Of a DNA stretch of 32,081 nt, positions 24,377-28,720 are shown piece by piece. Source of the stretch: Oscillospiraceae bacterium. GTDB lineage: Bacteria; Bacillota; Clostridia; Oscillospirales; CAG-272. How positions within the stretch are numbered: position 1 is the first letter of the stretch; each line of letters opens with the position of its first letter. Where the stretch lies: positions 1 to 32,081 of the forward strand of contig SVSC01000012.1 of NCBI GenBank assembly GCA_015064525.1, read 5' to 3'. The notes under the pieces are model-generated. The model did no database searches and was not told the DNA's origin. It saw nothing but the letters and a program-made list of their open reading frames with translations. Position numbers and translations under genes: made by a program.

Positions 24377-24853
24377 TCACTCCTTCCCTTCCAAATATTC
24401 CCCGTAGTAGAGCGCCTCGGCTTCCCTTCTTGCCTTCACAGCATCGTTGAAGTTTTCGTAGGAACCGATATTCGTCATTTGCCCCCGAAATTTCAATCGG
24501 GCGCGCCATTTGTTGGAGCGTCGGTCGAAATACACCCCGCGCACACCGCTGGCATTGGAGGATTCGGACTTGATATTGCGGATACGGCTGATCTGCGTGC
24601 CGTCGGCAAAGCCCGCCATGCTTCTCGCCTTAGCGGCGTTTTGCGCCGCGCTGCAGGTGGCGCACATACACGTTCCCGTTCCAACCAGCGAATCGGTTGC
24701 GCGGTAGACTACCTCGCCTCAATCGCACACACATTCCCACAAGGGAACGGTGCGAGCCCCTCGCGAGCCCCGTTTCTCGGAACGACAGCGAACCGTCAGC
24801 CGCCCAAACCTTCGCCCCACAAGACTTTCACGGGTTGGTTTTGCTCGTGCCAT
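24377..24853 (-). pseudogene. AP2-domain DNA-binding protein interrupted by an in-frame TGA
   Basis: One frame runs from ATG 24853 (GGAGTGAAAGGG upstream) to the stop at 24377, broken only by a TGA at 24721-24719. Before it: MARAKPTRESLVGRRFGRLTVRC and PLWECVCD. After it: GEVVYRATDSLVGTGTCMCATC, then an AP2-type domain (SNASGVRGVYFDRRSNKWRARLKFRGQ, NIGSYENFNDAVKARREAEALYYGEYL). In this family the sequence at the break reads CxCDCG, so TGA stands exactly where Cys is expected and is one base from TGC or TGT. Full length would be 158 residues: an N-terminal Cys-rich zinc-binding module and a C-terminal AP2 DNA-binding domain, as in many phage- or mobile-linked proteins. The simplest reading is a recent nonsense mutation. 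The C-terminal half has an internal ATG (24667) and could still be made alone. Recoding is unlikely but not excluded. Confidence 0.75.
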
Positions 24854-24968: not shown

Positions 24969-27335
24969 TCAGTTGCCAAAAGTGTTGCTATCTACCACAG
25001 TAGAATCAAAGGATACACCGTAGCTACTGTGATCCTGGAGATATGTTGCAGAAGCAAAGGTAGCATTCTTCACAAACGCATTGCCCTTTACAACAACGGG
25101 AGTGCTGCTCTGGTATTTGCCCAAATAAATGGGTCTATCCAAGCAATCGCTTGCAAAGGTGTTGCCCTCGATCACAAACTCACCGTATCCTGCATAGTAG
25201 GTGTAAATATCAACGTATCCGCCGGTTGTTTGGAAGGTGCAGCCCTTGATGGTGATATTACCGGACTGTCCGGAACCACGACCCTGATCGTTAAAAGCGA
25301 TCGTCGTACCGCCGTTAGCAAAAGCGCCGGTGAAGGTGCAGCCCTCAATCACAAGGTTGCGCGAGCCCGCGCCGTTTTTACCTGCATCGCCACTGAGGAT
25401 GTTTGCATAGAATCTCGCATTTCCTTTACCGTCATAAGCCATTCGAGCGCCTGCGGCATCGAAAACGATGTTCTTCAGGGTAACGTTGTTGGCGCCGTTC
25501 AGGTTGATGCAACCAACATTTTCACTACCGGTACCAACGAGCGTGATGTCACTTTTCATAACGATAGTGTTGTAGGTACCCTCGCCAAGCGCAATGATCG
25601 CGCCGGCAGAAGCGTTATTGATCAAATTCTGAACAGTTGCGGGAGTTGCCGTTACAAGCTCGTTGAGGTTGTTGGTGAGATTGTTAACGGTAACACCGGT
25701 CACATCGAAGTTGGGATTTACAGCACCGTTATATTCACTACCGTACAGCGTGTTGTAAGCACTGTAAGGCTTATGATAACCGTTCAGCGTTACGTTCTCA
25801 ACCACACCGGTCAGAGTGGTTGCCGCAGTTCCGCCATAGCAACCAACCAGAGCACCGATAGAGGGGTTTCCATCCGTACGGGTCTTGTTCAGAACCACGT
25901 TCTTAACAGAGCAGTTCACAATGGCATTGCTACCGGTTTGAATGATGCCGGCGATACCGCCCACAGCACCGTAACCGGAAATGGTCAAGCCCTCAACGGA
26001 GCAATCCTTAATGGTCTTTGCTTTGTTGCACTGATAGCCAACAATACCGCCAACGAAAGAGCCTGCGGAGCTGATCACACCGTTGTCTGCAATCACAGCG
26101 CAATTTTCGAAGTTTGCATGGTAGCCATAACCAACAATACCGCCGGCATAGCCGTCAGCGTTGGAACTGATAACGGATACGTTACCGCTCACCGTGATGT
26201 TAGAGAAGGTAGACTGAGAATTATAGCACATACCAAAAATAACACCGCAGTTGTCGCCAACAGATACGTTAGCGTTGTGCACGTTAACGTTCTTAACGGT
26301 TACGGCAACAGTAGTATAGCCAAACAGACCCTGACCCCAAGCAGTGGGATTATCAATATTCAGGTTGTAGATGGTGTAGCCGCAACCATCGAAAATGCCT
26401 GCAAAGCCAACATAGGTTTCAGACATAGGATCGGCGATAGGAGTCCAAGACAGATTGTTCAGATCAATGTTGGAAGCCAGCTTAATGGTCTTTCCTGCAA
26501 AATCATCCGCAACGGTAGCGTAGCCGTTGGTGATCGCAGCCAAGCCCGCCAGCTCCTCGGCGGTGCCGATCACGAACTCGGTGTCGGTGGTGTTGTACCA
26601 AGTGGTATCGACATCACCGTACCAAGGAGTAGCGCCGTCGTAGTACTTGTCGAAGCTGTCCTTTTCGCTTGCAACCTGAGTTGCGATCACGTTGATGCCG
26701 AGATTGATCTCGGGACGGTACTTATCGGGATTGGTAGCATCGTCGGAGGTCTTGTAGTTTGCAACGTTGCCAACAGAGGTGGGCATATAAACCACAAGAG
26801 CGAGGTACAGCTCGTCACCGGATGCCATGGAGGAAGCCTTGGTGTAGCCCGCGGAGATCTTCTTCGCGTTCGCGTTCACAGCGGCAACTGCATCCTCACG
26901 GGTTGCGTAGGTAGTGGGTACCTTGTTTGCGTCAACGGCAATTCCCTCAACCACGCCGAACTGGATGTAGTCGGAAAGCGTGAAGGTTACGTCCTCGGCG
27001 TTTACGCCCTTCTTCTCTTCGCCAACAATGTTGATACCCAGCTGATACTTGAGAGCGAGCGTGCCCGCGTTGGCAACTCTGAGGTAGGCAACCTCGGTTA
27101 CGCCGGGCTCCCAAAGCTTGTTGGTAAGGATTTCGGATACGTCCTCAACATCCTCCCACTTTTCGCCGTTCCAGTATTCAAGCTCAACATCCAGATTACC
27201 GGACTGAATGATATTGTTCGCAGAGCTTACGGAATCCGTAAACCATGCGTAGGTCGTCCCCATCAGCATGGTGAAGCACAGCAGCAGTGACATCACGCTG
27301 GTGAGAAGCGCCCGTTTGGTGTTCTTGTTAGTCAT
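24969..27335 (-). CDS. Large secreted surface protein: SipW/TasA-type signal, GLUG-like repeats, beta-helix
   Basis: 788 aa. The N-terminus (residues 1-50: TKRALLTSVMSLLLCFTMLMGTTYAWFTDSVSSANNIIQSGNLDVELEYWN) is the SipW-cognate signal with the TasA/CalY-like start of the mature protein. A beta-rich TasA-like region follows to about 230. From about 245 to 540, repeated GLUG-type units (FAGIFDGCGYTIYNLNID; YAGGIVGYGYHANFENCAV; FVGGIVGYQCNKAKTIKDCSV; AVGGIAGIIQTGSNAIVNCSV) stack Cys/Val strands. The last 230 residues look like a right-handed parallel beta-helix (NITIKGCTFQTTGGYVDIYTYYAGYGEFVIEGNTF). There is no LPxTG motif, C-terminal membrane helix or repeat-type wall anchor, so attachment is by fibre formation or unknown. 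Composition is AT-richer than its neighbours. Start ATG after AAGGAGG. No sigma-A promoter faces it in this orientation; see the invertible segment at 27440-27699. Confidence 0.85.
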   Translation of the reverse strand: MTNKNTKRALLTSVMSLLLCFTMLMGTTYAWFTDSVSSANNIIQSGNLDVELEYWNGEKWEDVEDVSEILTNKLWEPGVTEVAYLRVANAGTLALKYQLGINIVGEEKKGVNAEDVTFTLSDYIQFGVVEGIAVDANKVPTTYATREDAVAAVNANAKKISAGYTKASSMASGDELYLALVVYMPTSVGNVANYKTSDDATNPDKYRPEINLGINVIATQVASEKDSFDKYYDGATPWYGDVDTTWYNTTDTEFVIGTAEELAGLAAITNGYATVADDFAGKTIKLASNIDLNNLSWTPIADPMSETYVGFAGIFDGCGYTIYNLNIDNPTAWGQGLFGYTTVAVTVKNVNVHNANVSVGDNCGVIFGMCYNSQSTFSNITVSGNVSVISSNADGYAGGIVGYGYHANFENCAVIADNGVISSAGSFVGGIVGYQCNKAKTIKDCSVEGLTISGYGAVGGIAGIIQTGSNAIVNCSVKNVVLNKTRTDGNPSIGALVGCYGGTAATTLTGVVENVTLNGYHKPYSAYNTLYGSEYNGAVNPNFDVTGVTVNNLTNNLNELVTATPATVQNLINNASAGAIIALGEGTYNTIVMKSDITLVGTGSENVGCINLNGANNVTLKNIVFDAAGARMAYDGKGNARFYANILSGDAGKNGAGSRNLVIEGCTFTGAFANGGTTIAFNDQGRGSGQSGNITIKGCTFQTTGGYVDIYTYYAGYGEFVIEGNTFASDCLDRPIYLGKYQSSTPVVVKGNAFVKNATFASATYLQDHSSYGVSFDSTVVDSNTFGN

Positions 27336-27435
27336 GTTTTTTCCTCCTTATCGGTTTATTTTTTTTGAGACTAACCTTTATGTAAAGCGGTTCCTCCGCC
27401 GTACACCAATATCAAAATCCCGCCTGCCCCTTCCC

Positions 27436-27463
27436 TTGCAACGGAATGGGAGTTATGTTGCAA
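27436..27463 (+). repeat. Left recombination site with 7-bp arms
   Basis: TTGCAAC (27436-27442) and GTTGCAA (27457-27463) are exact inverted arms around 14 bases, overlapping the left 19-bp repeat. This is the layout of a tyrosine recombinase binding site, two inverted arms around the crossover spacer. The right copy lacks the outer bases of these arms. Confidence 0.5.
27440..27458 (+). repeat. Left inverted repeat of the invertible segment
   Basis: 19 bases, identical to the reverse complement of 27681-27699; the match ends exactly at both edges. Confidence 0.92.
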
Positions 27464-27497
27464 AGTCTCCCGTTGCCCACGCCGTTGGTGTATGCAT

Positions 27498-27575
27498 TGG
27501 CGCAAAAAAGAGCGCAACAAAGCCAACCCTTCCCGATTTTTCAAAATCAGAGGCGCGAAGGGCTTTTTGTTGCGC
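27498..27575 (-). terminator. Hairpin with minus-strand T run inside the invertible segment
   Basis: GCGCAAC (27512-27518) pairs with GTTGCGC (27569-27575); AAAGCC/GGCTTT extends the stem and GATTTT/AAAATC (27535-27540 with 27543-27548) forms the tip. Read on minus, the stem is followed by TCTTTTTTGCGCC. In the present orientation it would stop readthrough from the recombinase gene into the surface-protein gene. Confidence 0.55.
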
Positions 27576-27613
27576 AAAAAAACGGATTATTTTCTTTTTT
27601 TTTAAGATATGTA

Positions 27614-27642
27614 TTGACTTTTTCCGTTATCTGTGATACAAT
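27614..27642 (+). promoter_or_regulatory. Promoter inside the invertible segment, pointing away from the surface gene
   Basis: -35 TTGACT (27614-27619), 17-bp spacer, -10 TACAAT (27637-27642). A run of nine T (27595-27603) lies just upstream. Transcripts would start near 27649 and meet the terminator at 27707. Confidence 0.8.
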
Positions 27643-27680
27643 GATTCAAACAAATCGTTCCGTTTCCCTAATCCTTCATC

Positions 27681-27699
27681 ACATAACTCCCATTCCGTT
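27681..27699 (+). repeat. Right inverted repeat of the invertible segment
   Basis: ACATAACTCCCATTCCGTT, the exact reverse complement of 27440-27458. Confidence 0.92.
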
Positions 27700-27706
27700 T
27701 TTCTTC

Positions 27707-27738
27707 GCCCTCGGTGCCTTCCGCATCGGGCTTTTTTT
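27707..27738 (+). terminator. Fixed terminator between the switch and the recombinase gene
   Basis: GCCC (27707-27710) with GGGC (27728-27731) and inner GGTGC/GCATC, loop CTTCC, followed by seven T (27732-27738). It is outside the inverted repeats, so it stays in place. It would stop the OFF-state transcript before it runs antisense into the recombinase gene. Confidence 0.82.
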
Positions 27739-27741
27739 GTT

Positions 27742-28575
27742 TTAAATAATCAGGTGCAAATGCTCCAGCTTTCGCTTATGCTCCGCGCCCGTGGCAATTA
27801 TATAGATCCGCGTGGTGTTGATGCTGGAATGACCTAAAATATCCGCCAGCTTTGCAATGTCCTTTTCTCTTTCGTAGAAGCAACGGGCAAACAGATGCCG
27901 AAGATTATGGGGGAACACCTTATTGGGCAGCACGCCCGCCTGCAGGCAAAGCGCCTTCATTTCCCGCCACACCCAATGGCGGCTGACGGGATTTCCCCCT
28001 CTCGTGACAAAAATGACGCCGCTCACGATTCCACGCTCCCGCGCATAACGAAGAAGCCGCTCCCGCAATTTTGCCACCAAAAATACGTGGCGGTTCTTCC
28101 CCTTGCACCGCACAAACGCCTCTCCTCGCTCCGCTGCCTCAACGGTAACGTGCCGCAATTCACTCACGCGGATCCCCGTTCCGCAAATGGTTTGCAGAAT
28201 CAGCGCCAGCCTGCGGTCGCCCCTTTCTCTTGCCGCCCGCACCAGCCGCTCGTATTCCTCGCGGGTCAGCTCCTTTTCCTCGGATCGGTAGATCTGCCTT
28301 TGCAGGCGAAACTGCTTAACGCACCAATCATGCCGTCCGCAAAAGCGCAAGTAGGCATTCACCGCCGCGATCATGGAGTTCGCCCCCGACACGGCATAGC
28401 GCTCCCCCAGCATGGCTTTGTAGTCCAGAACCCCTTGTCGGCTGATCAACTCTCCCGCAAACGCGAGGAAGCAACGAACGTCACGCTGATATTTTTCAAC
28501 GGTGGCATTGCTTTTCTCCCGCTCTCTCAAATGGGCAACAAACGCTTCAACGGTCCTTGCTTTGATTCTTTTCAT
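27742..28575 (-). CDS. Tyrosine recombinase (site-specific integrase/invertase)
   Basis: 277 aa and apparently complete. The N-terminal SAM-like core-binding domain (1-95: TVEAFVAHLREREKSNATVEKYQRDVRCFLAFAG) is followed by the catalytic domain. That domain has arginine I in GTGIRVSELRHV, the beta-hairpin lysine in RCKGKNRHVFL, the H-x-x-R pair in FPHNLRHLFA, the second histidine in ILGHSSINTTRIYI and the nucleophile tyrosine in RIYI. All catalytic residues are present. Size and single-domain layout fit the small invertase/XerD-like group rather than long phage integrases. No phage, transposon or att-like tRNA end lies nearby. It sits 42 bases from a pair of 19-bp inverted repeats and is the natural candidate to flip them. 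Start ATG with GAGAGG upstream; no clear promoter of its own was found. Confidence 0.93.
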   Translation of the reverse strand: MKRIKARTVEAFVAHLREREKSNATVEKYQRDVRCFLAFAGELISRQGVLDYKAMLGERYAVSGANSMIAAVNAYLRFCGRHDWCVKQFRLQRQIYRSEEKELTREEYERLVRAARERGDRRLALILQTICGTGIRVSELRHVTVEAAERGEAFVRCKGKNRHVFLVAKLRERLLRYARERGIVSGVIFVTRGGNPVSRHWVWREMKALCLQAGVLPNKVFPHNLRHLFARCFYEREKDIAKLADILGHSSINTTRIYIIATGAEHKRKLEHLHLII

Positions 28576-28663
28576 GTGTTTTCCTCTCTTTCGGTTTTCT
28601 CCCTTATTATTCTACCAAACCGCGCGACCTTTTCGCGTCCCTCGCGCAATTTTTTCAAATCTC

Positions 28664-28692
28664 TTGATTTTTATCCTGCAATTTGGTATAAT
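28664..28692 (+). promoter_or_regulatory. Sigma-A promoter of the SCP2/aminotransferase operon
   Basis: -35 TTGATT (28664-28669), 17-bp spacer, -10 TATAAT (28687-28692). Confidence 0.85.
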
Positions 28693-28720
28693 AAGGTATC
28701 TCAATTGAAAGGAACGAATT

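Follow-up and report, generated by a model that had tools for sequence, protein, structure and literature searches.

The window analysed here is a stretch of 32,081 nt from an Oscillospiraceae bacterium (contig SVSC01000012.1, positions 1 to 32,081). It carries a gene for a secreted protein, a tyrosine recombinase gene on the same strand and, between the two, a short segment bracketed by inverted repeats (Table 1). The repeat described in a first-pass annotation of this DNA, 19 bp long and perfect around 222 bp, was recovered in full, with 19/19 complementary positions and 222 nt between the arms. No 19-bp perfect repeat with a spacing of 60–600 nt appeared in 100 first-order Markov sequences built from the window, and a perfect repeat of at least 15 bp at the same spacing appeared in one of 100; the 19-bp repeat is not explained by chance. 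When up to three mismatches are allowed, the arm sequence is found at only these two places in the genome, and the control pattern, read backwards, gave three matches. The division of the arms into half-sites and spacer is inferred from the core of a wider family described below, ACATAA-N6-TTATGT. From this core the window site differs at two of 12 bases, with ACGGAA instead of ACATAA in both arms; the ACGGAA half-site recurs in two relatives, L143 and L098, whose perfect repeats measure 23 and 18 bp. A scan of positions 27300–28700 against Rfam returned a single sub-threshold match (BsrG, 15.8 versus 55 bits), which we regard as chance.

Table 1. Features of the predicted switch, the recombinase gene and the genes on the other side of the segment (window coordinates; the ON and OFF states are predicted).
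Feature	Position	Strand	Description or basis
Second gene, downstream of the surface gene	24380-24853	-	56% relative of a 163-aa AP2-like protein behind the C105 paralogue
Controlled gene (predicted), 788-aa secreted protein	24969-27335	-	SipW-type signal, TasA/camelysin-like N-terminal domain, repeat-rich remainder
Ribosome-binding site of the surface gene, AAGGAGG	27343-27349	-	Sequence
Gene-side arm, proposed recombination site	27440-27458	+	19/19 complementary to the other arm
Half-site ACGGAA of the gene-side arm	27441-27446		
Spacer TGGGAG of the gene-side arm	27447-27452		6 bp
Half-site TTATGT of the gene-side arm	27453-27458		
Putative invertible segment, OFF orientation in the assembly	27459-27680		222 bp; aligns with the ON-state C105 segment only when inverted
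Long hairpin in the segment	27512-27575		-30.7 kcal/mol on the strand read from the recombinase towards the surface gene, then UCUUUUUU
Sigma-70-type promoter, TTGACT-17-TACAAT, TG before the -10	27614-27642	+	10/12 matches; faces away from the surface gene
Recombinase-side arm, same site in inverse orientation	27681-27699	-	Spacer at 27687-27692
Intrinsic-terminator-like site facing the recombinase	27710-27730	+	Folds at -12.4, z -2.6; terminator scans
Tyrosine recombinase, Xer-like, 277 aa	27742-28575	-	Pfam Phage_integrase, 88.9 bits; SAM-like N-terminal domain

One strong promoter facing away from the surface gene had been noted in the segment, and our scan confirmed it. Taken alone, this match is weak evidence, since the scan of a 3-kb stretch found three promoter-like matches where 1.8 are expected. 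Outside the segment, the only matches were one facing away at 28664–28692 and a weak one near the surface gene (TTTACA-17-AAAAAT, 9/12), which starts 51 bp before the ATG and which we judge not credible as a real promoter. The earlier statement that the surface gene lacks a promoter of its own stands in that no credible one was found, and is qualified by this 9/12 match. Inversion of the segment in silico places the promoter on the strand of the surface gene; the leader up to the ATG then measures about 155 nt (+1 set 7 nt past the -10), close to the previous estimate of about 154 nt. The in-segment hairpin folds with a z of -2.5, and three of 200 shuffles were as good; two simple terminator scans made no call on it. 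This long hairpin and the terminator facing the recombinase belong to the module, the original description of which is extended by both.

The recombinase gene had been listed as complete, and its frame is indeed intact and its product matches Phage_integrase. Six residues (R136, K160, H223, R226, H249, and Y258), which we take to be the catalytic residues of the recombinase family, are invariant in an alignment of 11 proteins that includes the window's own. Among solved structures, a XerC-like protein, XerA, and XerD score best. The protein falls under the NCBIfam cut-offs for XerA (138.1 versus 220), XerC (111.6 versus 335.15), and XerD (111.3 versus 329.6), under that for integron integrases, and under those of the models for tyrosine-type DNA invertases of the FimB/FimE type (33.1 and 27 bits versus cut-offs of 222 and 221).

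The surface protein belongs to the SipW-type/TasA-type proteins by its signal and its camelysin/TasA domain. Peptidase_M73 (TasA/camelysin) matches at 24.1 bits against a cut-off of 22.5, while the cognate_SipW signal model scores 21.6 bits, above the cut-off, in the genome search and 18.3 against 19 in the protein scan. The middle of the protein resembles repeats of the GLUG type only weakly, the best stretch (residues 395–416) scoring 8.8 bits versus 20.5. The paralogue L192 scores 22.9 for GLUG, above the cut-off, and 17.6 for Beta_helix, below the 25.9 needed; the paralogue on contig C134 passes the GLUG cut-off. A search of solved structures with the surface protein gave no credible match (best E 0.22). 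The repeat-rich remainder is probably a beta-helix. The initial label of the whole protein as a beta-helix protein is to be qualified: only its TasA-type N-terminus passes a curated Pfam cut-off, GLUG is far under its own, and the beta-helix is no more than likely.

The AP2-like gene downstream of the surface gene has one in-frame stop and is probably broken in the window. Its 163-aa relative elsewhere in the genome matches AP2 at 18.4 versus 33.3 bits, under the Pfam cut-off. An AP2-like gene behind a TasA-type gene was observed in four cassettes (window 24380–24853, L005:3189–3680, L058:7578–8054, and L066:7880–8317), and the two genes may be switched together. At L119 and L223, a distant AP2-like relative is the first cargo itself.

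The same genome holds a second cassette, on contig C105, where positions 1087–1345 correspond to 27440–27699 of the window. Its recombinase is 66–67% identical to that of the window, a 20-bp perfect repeat lies behind the recombinase stop codon, and a SipW-type gene is found beyond the repeat. Between the arms, a promoter (TTGCAT-17-TATAAT) is aimed at this SipW-type gene. The encoded protein is 43% identical to the window's surface protein over residues 1–235 and 32% identical over residues 561–767. The two segments align with a z of 11.2 when one of them is inverted and of 1.6 as they are, whereas the 200 bp behind the far arm, which run into the SipW-type genes, align directly (z 28.5) and not when inverted (z 0.8). 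Because the segments align only inverted and the flanks directly, the two cassettes are in opposite states.

The exact core ACATAA-N6-TTATGT occurs in the whole genome only at C105. A search with up to one mismatch retrieved the two C105 arms and a single near match on C86, which is at chance level, as the backwards control pattern matched more often (five forward and five reverse, versus three and three). The spacers of the two cassettes differ; control of the window site in trans from C105 was considered as a candidate and seems unlikely (TGGGAG versus TGAGCG).

We looked at 14 loci of this genome with a SipW-type signal, of which two are the window and C105 cassettes and seven have no clear reading frame. 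On C134 and C76, the SipW-type paralogue is preceded by a fixed promoter, 157 and 143 bp ahead of the ATG respectively (11/12 matches each), and neither a repeat nor a recombination site was found at these two loci; an ordinary promoter occupies the place of the switch in the cassettes. At three SipW-signal loci on C135, neither promoter nor repeat was found. The genome encodes three SipW-like signal peptidases, all under the curated cut-off of the Bacillus model, and ten SipW-type signals above cut-off.

A repeat behind the recombinase proved to be a regular feature of related loci. Across 35 genomes of the genus, we inspected 14 loci that encode a close relative of the recombinase, among them the window and C105. 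All ten with enough sequence behind the recombinase carry a repeat of 16–24 bp with 186–255 bp between the arms, and in the remaining four the sequence stops at the recombinase or close to it. Public genomes, scanned with the alignment of recombinases, gave at least 596 stretches, and at least 585 of them encode a relative (E 1e-3 or better). Of these at least 585 relatives, the best 80 were kept; most are titled as Clostridia MAGs, many from ruminant gut. In total, 110 loci were collected and five were dropped, three as copies (L105, L073, and L139) and two lacking downstream sequence (L136 and L140). Sequence of at least 450 bp after the stop was available for 83 of the 105 loci in this wider set, the members of which were chosen for closeness (including the best 80 of at least 585). 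An inverted repeat of at least 13 bp within 700 bp after the stop is present in 77 of the 83, compared with three of 83 control stretches upstream (shorter than 700 bp in five of the 83 loci) and one of 72 far downstream. The repeat starts no more than 90 bp from the recombinase stop in 76 of the 77, and at 281 bp in L098. No repeat was found in this stretch at six loci (L079, L100, L114, L118, L125, and L129). The left arm contains the exact core in 64 of 77 cases, the spacers in these cores comprise 46 distinct sequences, none of them palindromic, and the distance from arm to arm ranges from 146 to 357 bp.

Because the loci of the wider set had been picked for closeness, an order-wide sample was also checked. 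Recombinases at E 1e-50 or better were found in 54 of its 147 genomes, that of the window included. From this sample, 29 loci were considered. Of the 24 that extend 450 bp or more past the stop, 19 carry a repeat and five have none. Five of the 19 share recombinase DNA with the wider set, so that 14 are new. By its recombinase and its repeats, the window locus is one of a large family of predicted cassettes.

At E 1e-20, phage records contain three relatives of the recombinase and plasmid records 20. In IMG/VR, we detected 16 relatives (L133–L148) on contigs predicted to be viral, several of them with a switch. Large secondary replicons of named gut strains also carry relatives, namely Monoglobus pectinilyticus (L244), Subdoligranulum variabile (L245 and L246), and Pusillibacter faecalis (L243). 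A perfect core repeat lies behind L244, L245, and L246, and behind L243 only a repeat of different sequence. The recombinase of L123 is followed by a 65-bp arm in which the core stands twice in tandem, an arrangement that may permit alternative crossovers.

The best promoter-like match points towards the downstream gene in 22 of the 77 segments and away from it in 47, and eight segments have none above threshold. A rival match on the other strand exists for 11 of these 69 calls, which leaves an unambiguous single call in 58 of the 77 segments. In 47 of the 58 clear calls, the -35 element lies 49–82 bp from the exit arm, compared with approximately 17% expected for a random position. The ratio of 22 ON to 47 OFF is only a rough one, because calls with the -35 more than 200 bp from the exit arm are unsure (e.g., L078, L084, and L075); a strict set of 47 calls comprises 14 ON and 33 OFF.

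Alignments of segments from related cassettes yielded both orientations as well. The same TetR-type gene stands behind the switch in L053, L056, L054, and L042; judged by sequence, L056 and L042 have it in a split or partly deleted form. The segments of L053 and L056 align directly (z 16.7, versus 4.5 inverted), as do those of L054 and L042 (z 21.3 versus 2.4), whereas all four cross pairs between these two groups align inverted (z 13.7–21.4, versus 3.3–5.2 as they are); the similarity of the flanks among the four is modest (z 0.3–9.4 direct). Nine of ten further pairs, with other cargo, have a clear better orientation, direct in some and inverted in others, and for the 17 segment pairs compared the figure is 16, L068–L109 being without one. 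The first-pass annotation had suggested looking for the flipped form in related genomes, and both orientations were found there, including a paralogue in the same genome aimed at its gene. This finding, together with the two switchless SipW-type paralogues that have fixed promoters, supports its interpretation of the locus as a phase switch. The ends of contigs are also unevenly placed: among the best 80 of at least 585 relatives, 13 of 80 records have a contig end no more than 350 bp after the recombinase, versus one of 80 before it (Fisher p 0.0012), and two more of these records end inside the 3′ end of the recombinase. Breaks at this location may reflect mixed orientations, to which they fit, or other causes.

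Terminator-like hairpins that face the recombinase are found in the stretch from stop to first arm in 44 of 69 cassettes, against 16.9 expected from dinucleotide shuffles. Hairpins in the forward direction between stop and first arm number three of 69, counted over a somewhat shorter stretch that has no shuffle expectation. Inside the segments, terminator-like hairpins occur along the direction of the ON promoter in 24 of 69 (11.9 expected) and in the opposite direction in 36 of 69 (13.4 expected); the window segment is not among the cassettes with called in-segment terminators.

We consider it highly likely that the window locus is a self-contained phase-variation cassette, in which the recombinase would flip the segment and thereby switch the surface gene. 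The tyrosine recombinase would join two inverted sites, each consisting of a half-site, a 6-bp spacer and a second half-site, so that the 222-bp segment turns over. In the present orientation, the promoter would fire towards the 3′ end of the recombinase gene, and its transcript would be halted at the terminator-like site before an antisense run into that gene, which corresponds to OFF. The hairpin in the segment would, in this state, limit read-through from the recombinase into the surface gene. With the segment flipped, the promoter would drive the SipW/TasA-type gene through the leader given above, which corresponds to ON. That the window copy inverts, that the adjoining recombinase is responsible, and that expression follows orientation are inferences; the anatomy, the intact frames of recombinase and surface gene, both promoter orientations in homologous cassettes, and the family-wide link between this recombinase and such sites are direct observations.

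The window copy could also be a family cassette that is locked, no longer inverting owing to weakened outer half-sites or a silent recombinase, with the surface gene permanently off or dependent on a cryptic promoter. Such a state would be in keeping with the deviating outer half-site ACGGAA in both arms, with the weak match to a promoter that starts 51 bp ahead of the ATG, and with the interruption of the AP2-like gene that follows. We nevertheless think it unlikely, for the two arms agree at all 19 bp, the recombinase has an uninterrupted frame and keeps the residues that are invariant in the alignment, and the ACGGAA half-sites are shared with L143 and L098, the repeats of which are perfect.

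The strong hairpin of the window segment invites another reading, in which, as in cwpV, transcription arrives from upstream (from the recombinase operon), inversion makes or breaks a terminator, and the promoter in the segment is secondary. The enrichment of in-segment hairpins and their somewhat greater frequency in the direction that blocks OFF-state read-through (36 versus 24 of 69) would agree with it. They are, however, enriched both ways, so that a change of orientation would not by itself generally relieve them; a single promoter at a near-constant distance from the exit arm is seen more often, and the window promoter is inside the segment. A cwpV-like mode of action therefore seems very unlikely here. 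We attach almost no weight to the view that the enzyme is an ordinary Xer protein or integrase whose repeats serve attachment or replication and have no part in regulation. Its best-scoring solved relatives are indeed Xer proteins, but it stays under the NCBIfam cut-offs for these and for integron integrases, the paired sites bracket 146–357 bp that mostly include a promoter, and the segments are inverted between relatives.

If the family is read as phase-variation cassettes, their cargo is diverse. Cargo was defined by a simple rule as a reading frame of at least 100 aa behind the switch, and was found in 71 of 77 cases. Among these 71 proteins, Pfam identified LRR_5 in seven, SPFH Band_7_1 in seven, Peptidase_M73 (TasA/camelysin) in seven, TetR_N in six, and zinc ribbons in four, while NCBIfam at E 0.01 identified SipW-type signal peptidases in eight and SipW-type signals in six. 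On a quick-method recombinase tree of 102 rows, the cargo class changes at least 18 times among the 34 rows labelled by their N-termini, and the orientation changes 19 times among 67 rows (both raw counts). As the cargo classes are varied and change on the tree, the module is not tied to one kind of gene.

Several of these cargoes are of interest in their own right. The first cargo of L049, L057, L110, L113, and L132 resembles a SipW-type signal peptidase by sequence, and in the genome G014 (L049) SipW-type proteins are encoded a short way further along that contig; such cassettes may switch secretion itself. Restriction-like helicases are found behind the cassettes L099 (5188–7479) and L102 (5201–7384), with weak PADLOC matches to type IV restriction enzymes and PbeA, and these two loci could possibly represent phase-variable defence.

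The genome G065, from the same order, contains 15 recombinase relatives (L228–L242). Twelve of the 15 have readable switches, and the other three are at a contig edge. A long type IV pilin-like protein stands behind 11 of the 12 switches, with an N_methyl match in all six of those scanned, and the promoter scan places two switches towards the gene and ten away from it. The core is a variant, ACATTA-N6-TAATGT, with the spacer TTGATA in nine of 12. This set looks like a phase-variable pilin repertoire. Since its spacers are mostly shared, spacers are not always private to a copy.

We lean, if only slightly, towards a broader reading, that of a portable module of one recombinase, one switch and one gene that has spread through gut Clostridia with mostly private 6-bp spacers and unrelated cargo, and that sometimes builds a combinatorial repertoire. 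Its cargo would range over TasA-type surface proteins, SipW-type signal peptidases, SPFH, TetR and leucine-rich-repeat proteins, and restriction-like helicases. Most copies have a crossover spacer of their own and would therefore flip independently; if this is true, the window genome switches at least two TasA-type proteins independently. If spacers govern pairing, the cassettes would amount to a set of independent flip switches. As the recombinase gene marks its own switch, invertible promoters could be predicted from assembled genomes without reads. For uncultured gut Clostridia, such predictions suggest that surface proteins, pilins, and other genes are turned on and off, and that cells differ from one another in ways concealed by an assembly in a single orientation.

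Invertible promoters with a linked recombinase are already known as a kind. In the fim switch of E. coli, a promoter within a short invertible segment controls a surface structure, and the genes for FimB and FimE are adjacent. The window locus differs from it in having one recombinase rather than two, another kind of cargo, and a recombinase that scores under the cut-offs of the FimB/FimE-type models. The fim switch is mentioned in PMC2784873, which describes cwpV of C. difficile as having its promoter outside the segment, control by termination, and a recombinase gene, recV, that is not near the switch; cwpV and RecV were tested there in E. coli. The parallel with cwpV drawn in the first-pass annotation is consequently a poor one, as the window promoter is inside the segment and its recombinase is adjacent. 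In C. difficile strain R20291, a recombinase is reported nearby at only one of seven sites, Cdi7 (PMC2784873, PMC5903667).

The closest description is that of inverton group 139, which comprises 33 invertons, 32 of them from Clostridia and nearly all near a tyrosine-type recombinase (PMC11892184). The recombinase of this group (invertase group 35) is reported there to occur preferentially in the orientation that the segment is unable to drive, and segments of Clostridium sp. D5 and Intestinimonas butyriciproducens, with about 205 and 227 bp between the arms, to show orientation changes in reads (PMC11892184). The window resembles group 139 in its Clostridia origin, in an adjacent tyrosine recombinase that the segment promoter cannot drive, and in segment length. 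Going by its description, the family of the window cassette is probably identical with group 139 and invertase group 35 (PMC11892184). The main text of that article makes no mention of SipW (PMC11892184), and a literature search, covering titles and abstract openings among the matches listed, returned no SipW/TasA-type gene under an invertible promoter. Like the TasA/SipW surface proteins of Firmicutes, the window protein combines a SipW-type signal with a camelysin/TasA-like N-terminal domain; unlike them, it has a long repeat-rich C-terminal part, and its expression is apparently controlled by DNA inversion. What may be new, relative to these systems, is the breadth of the family, the swapping of cargo, and the existence of repertoires such as the 15 recombinase copies in one genome.
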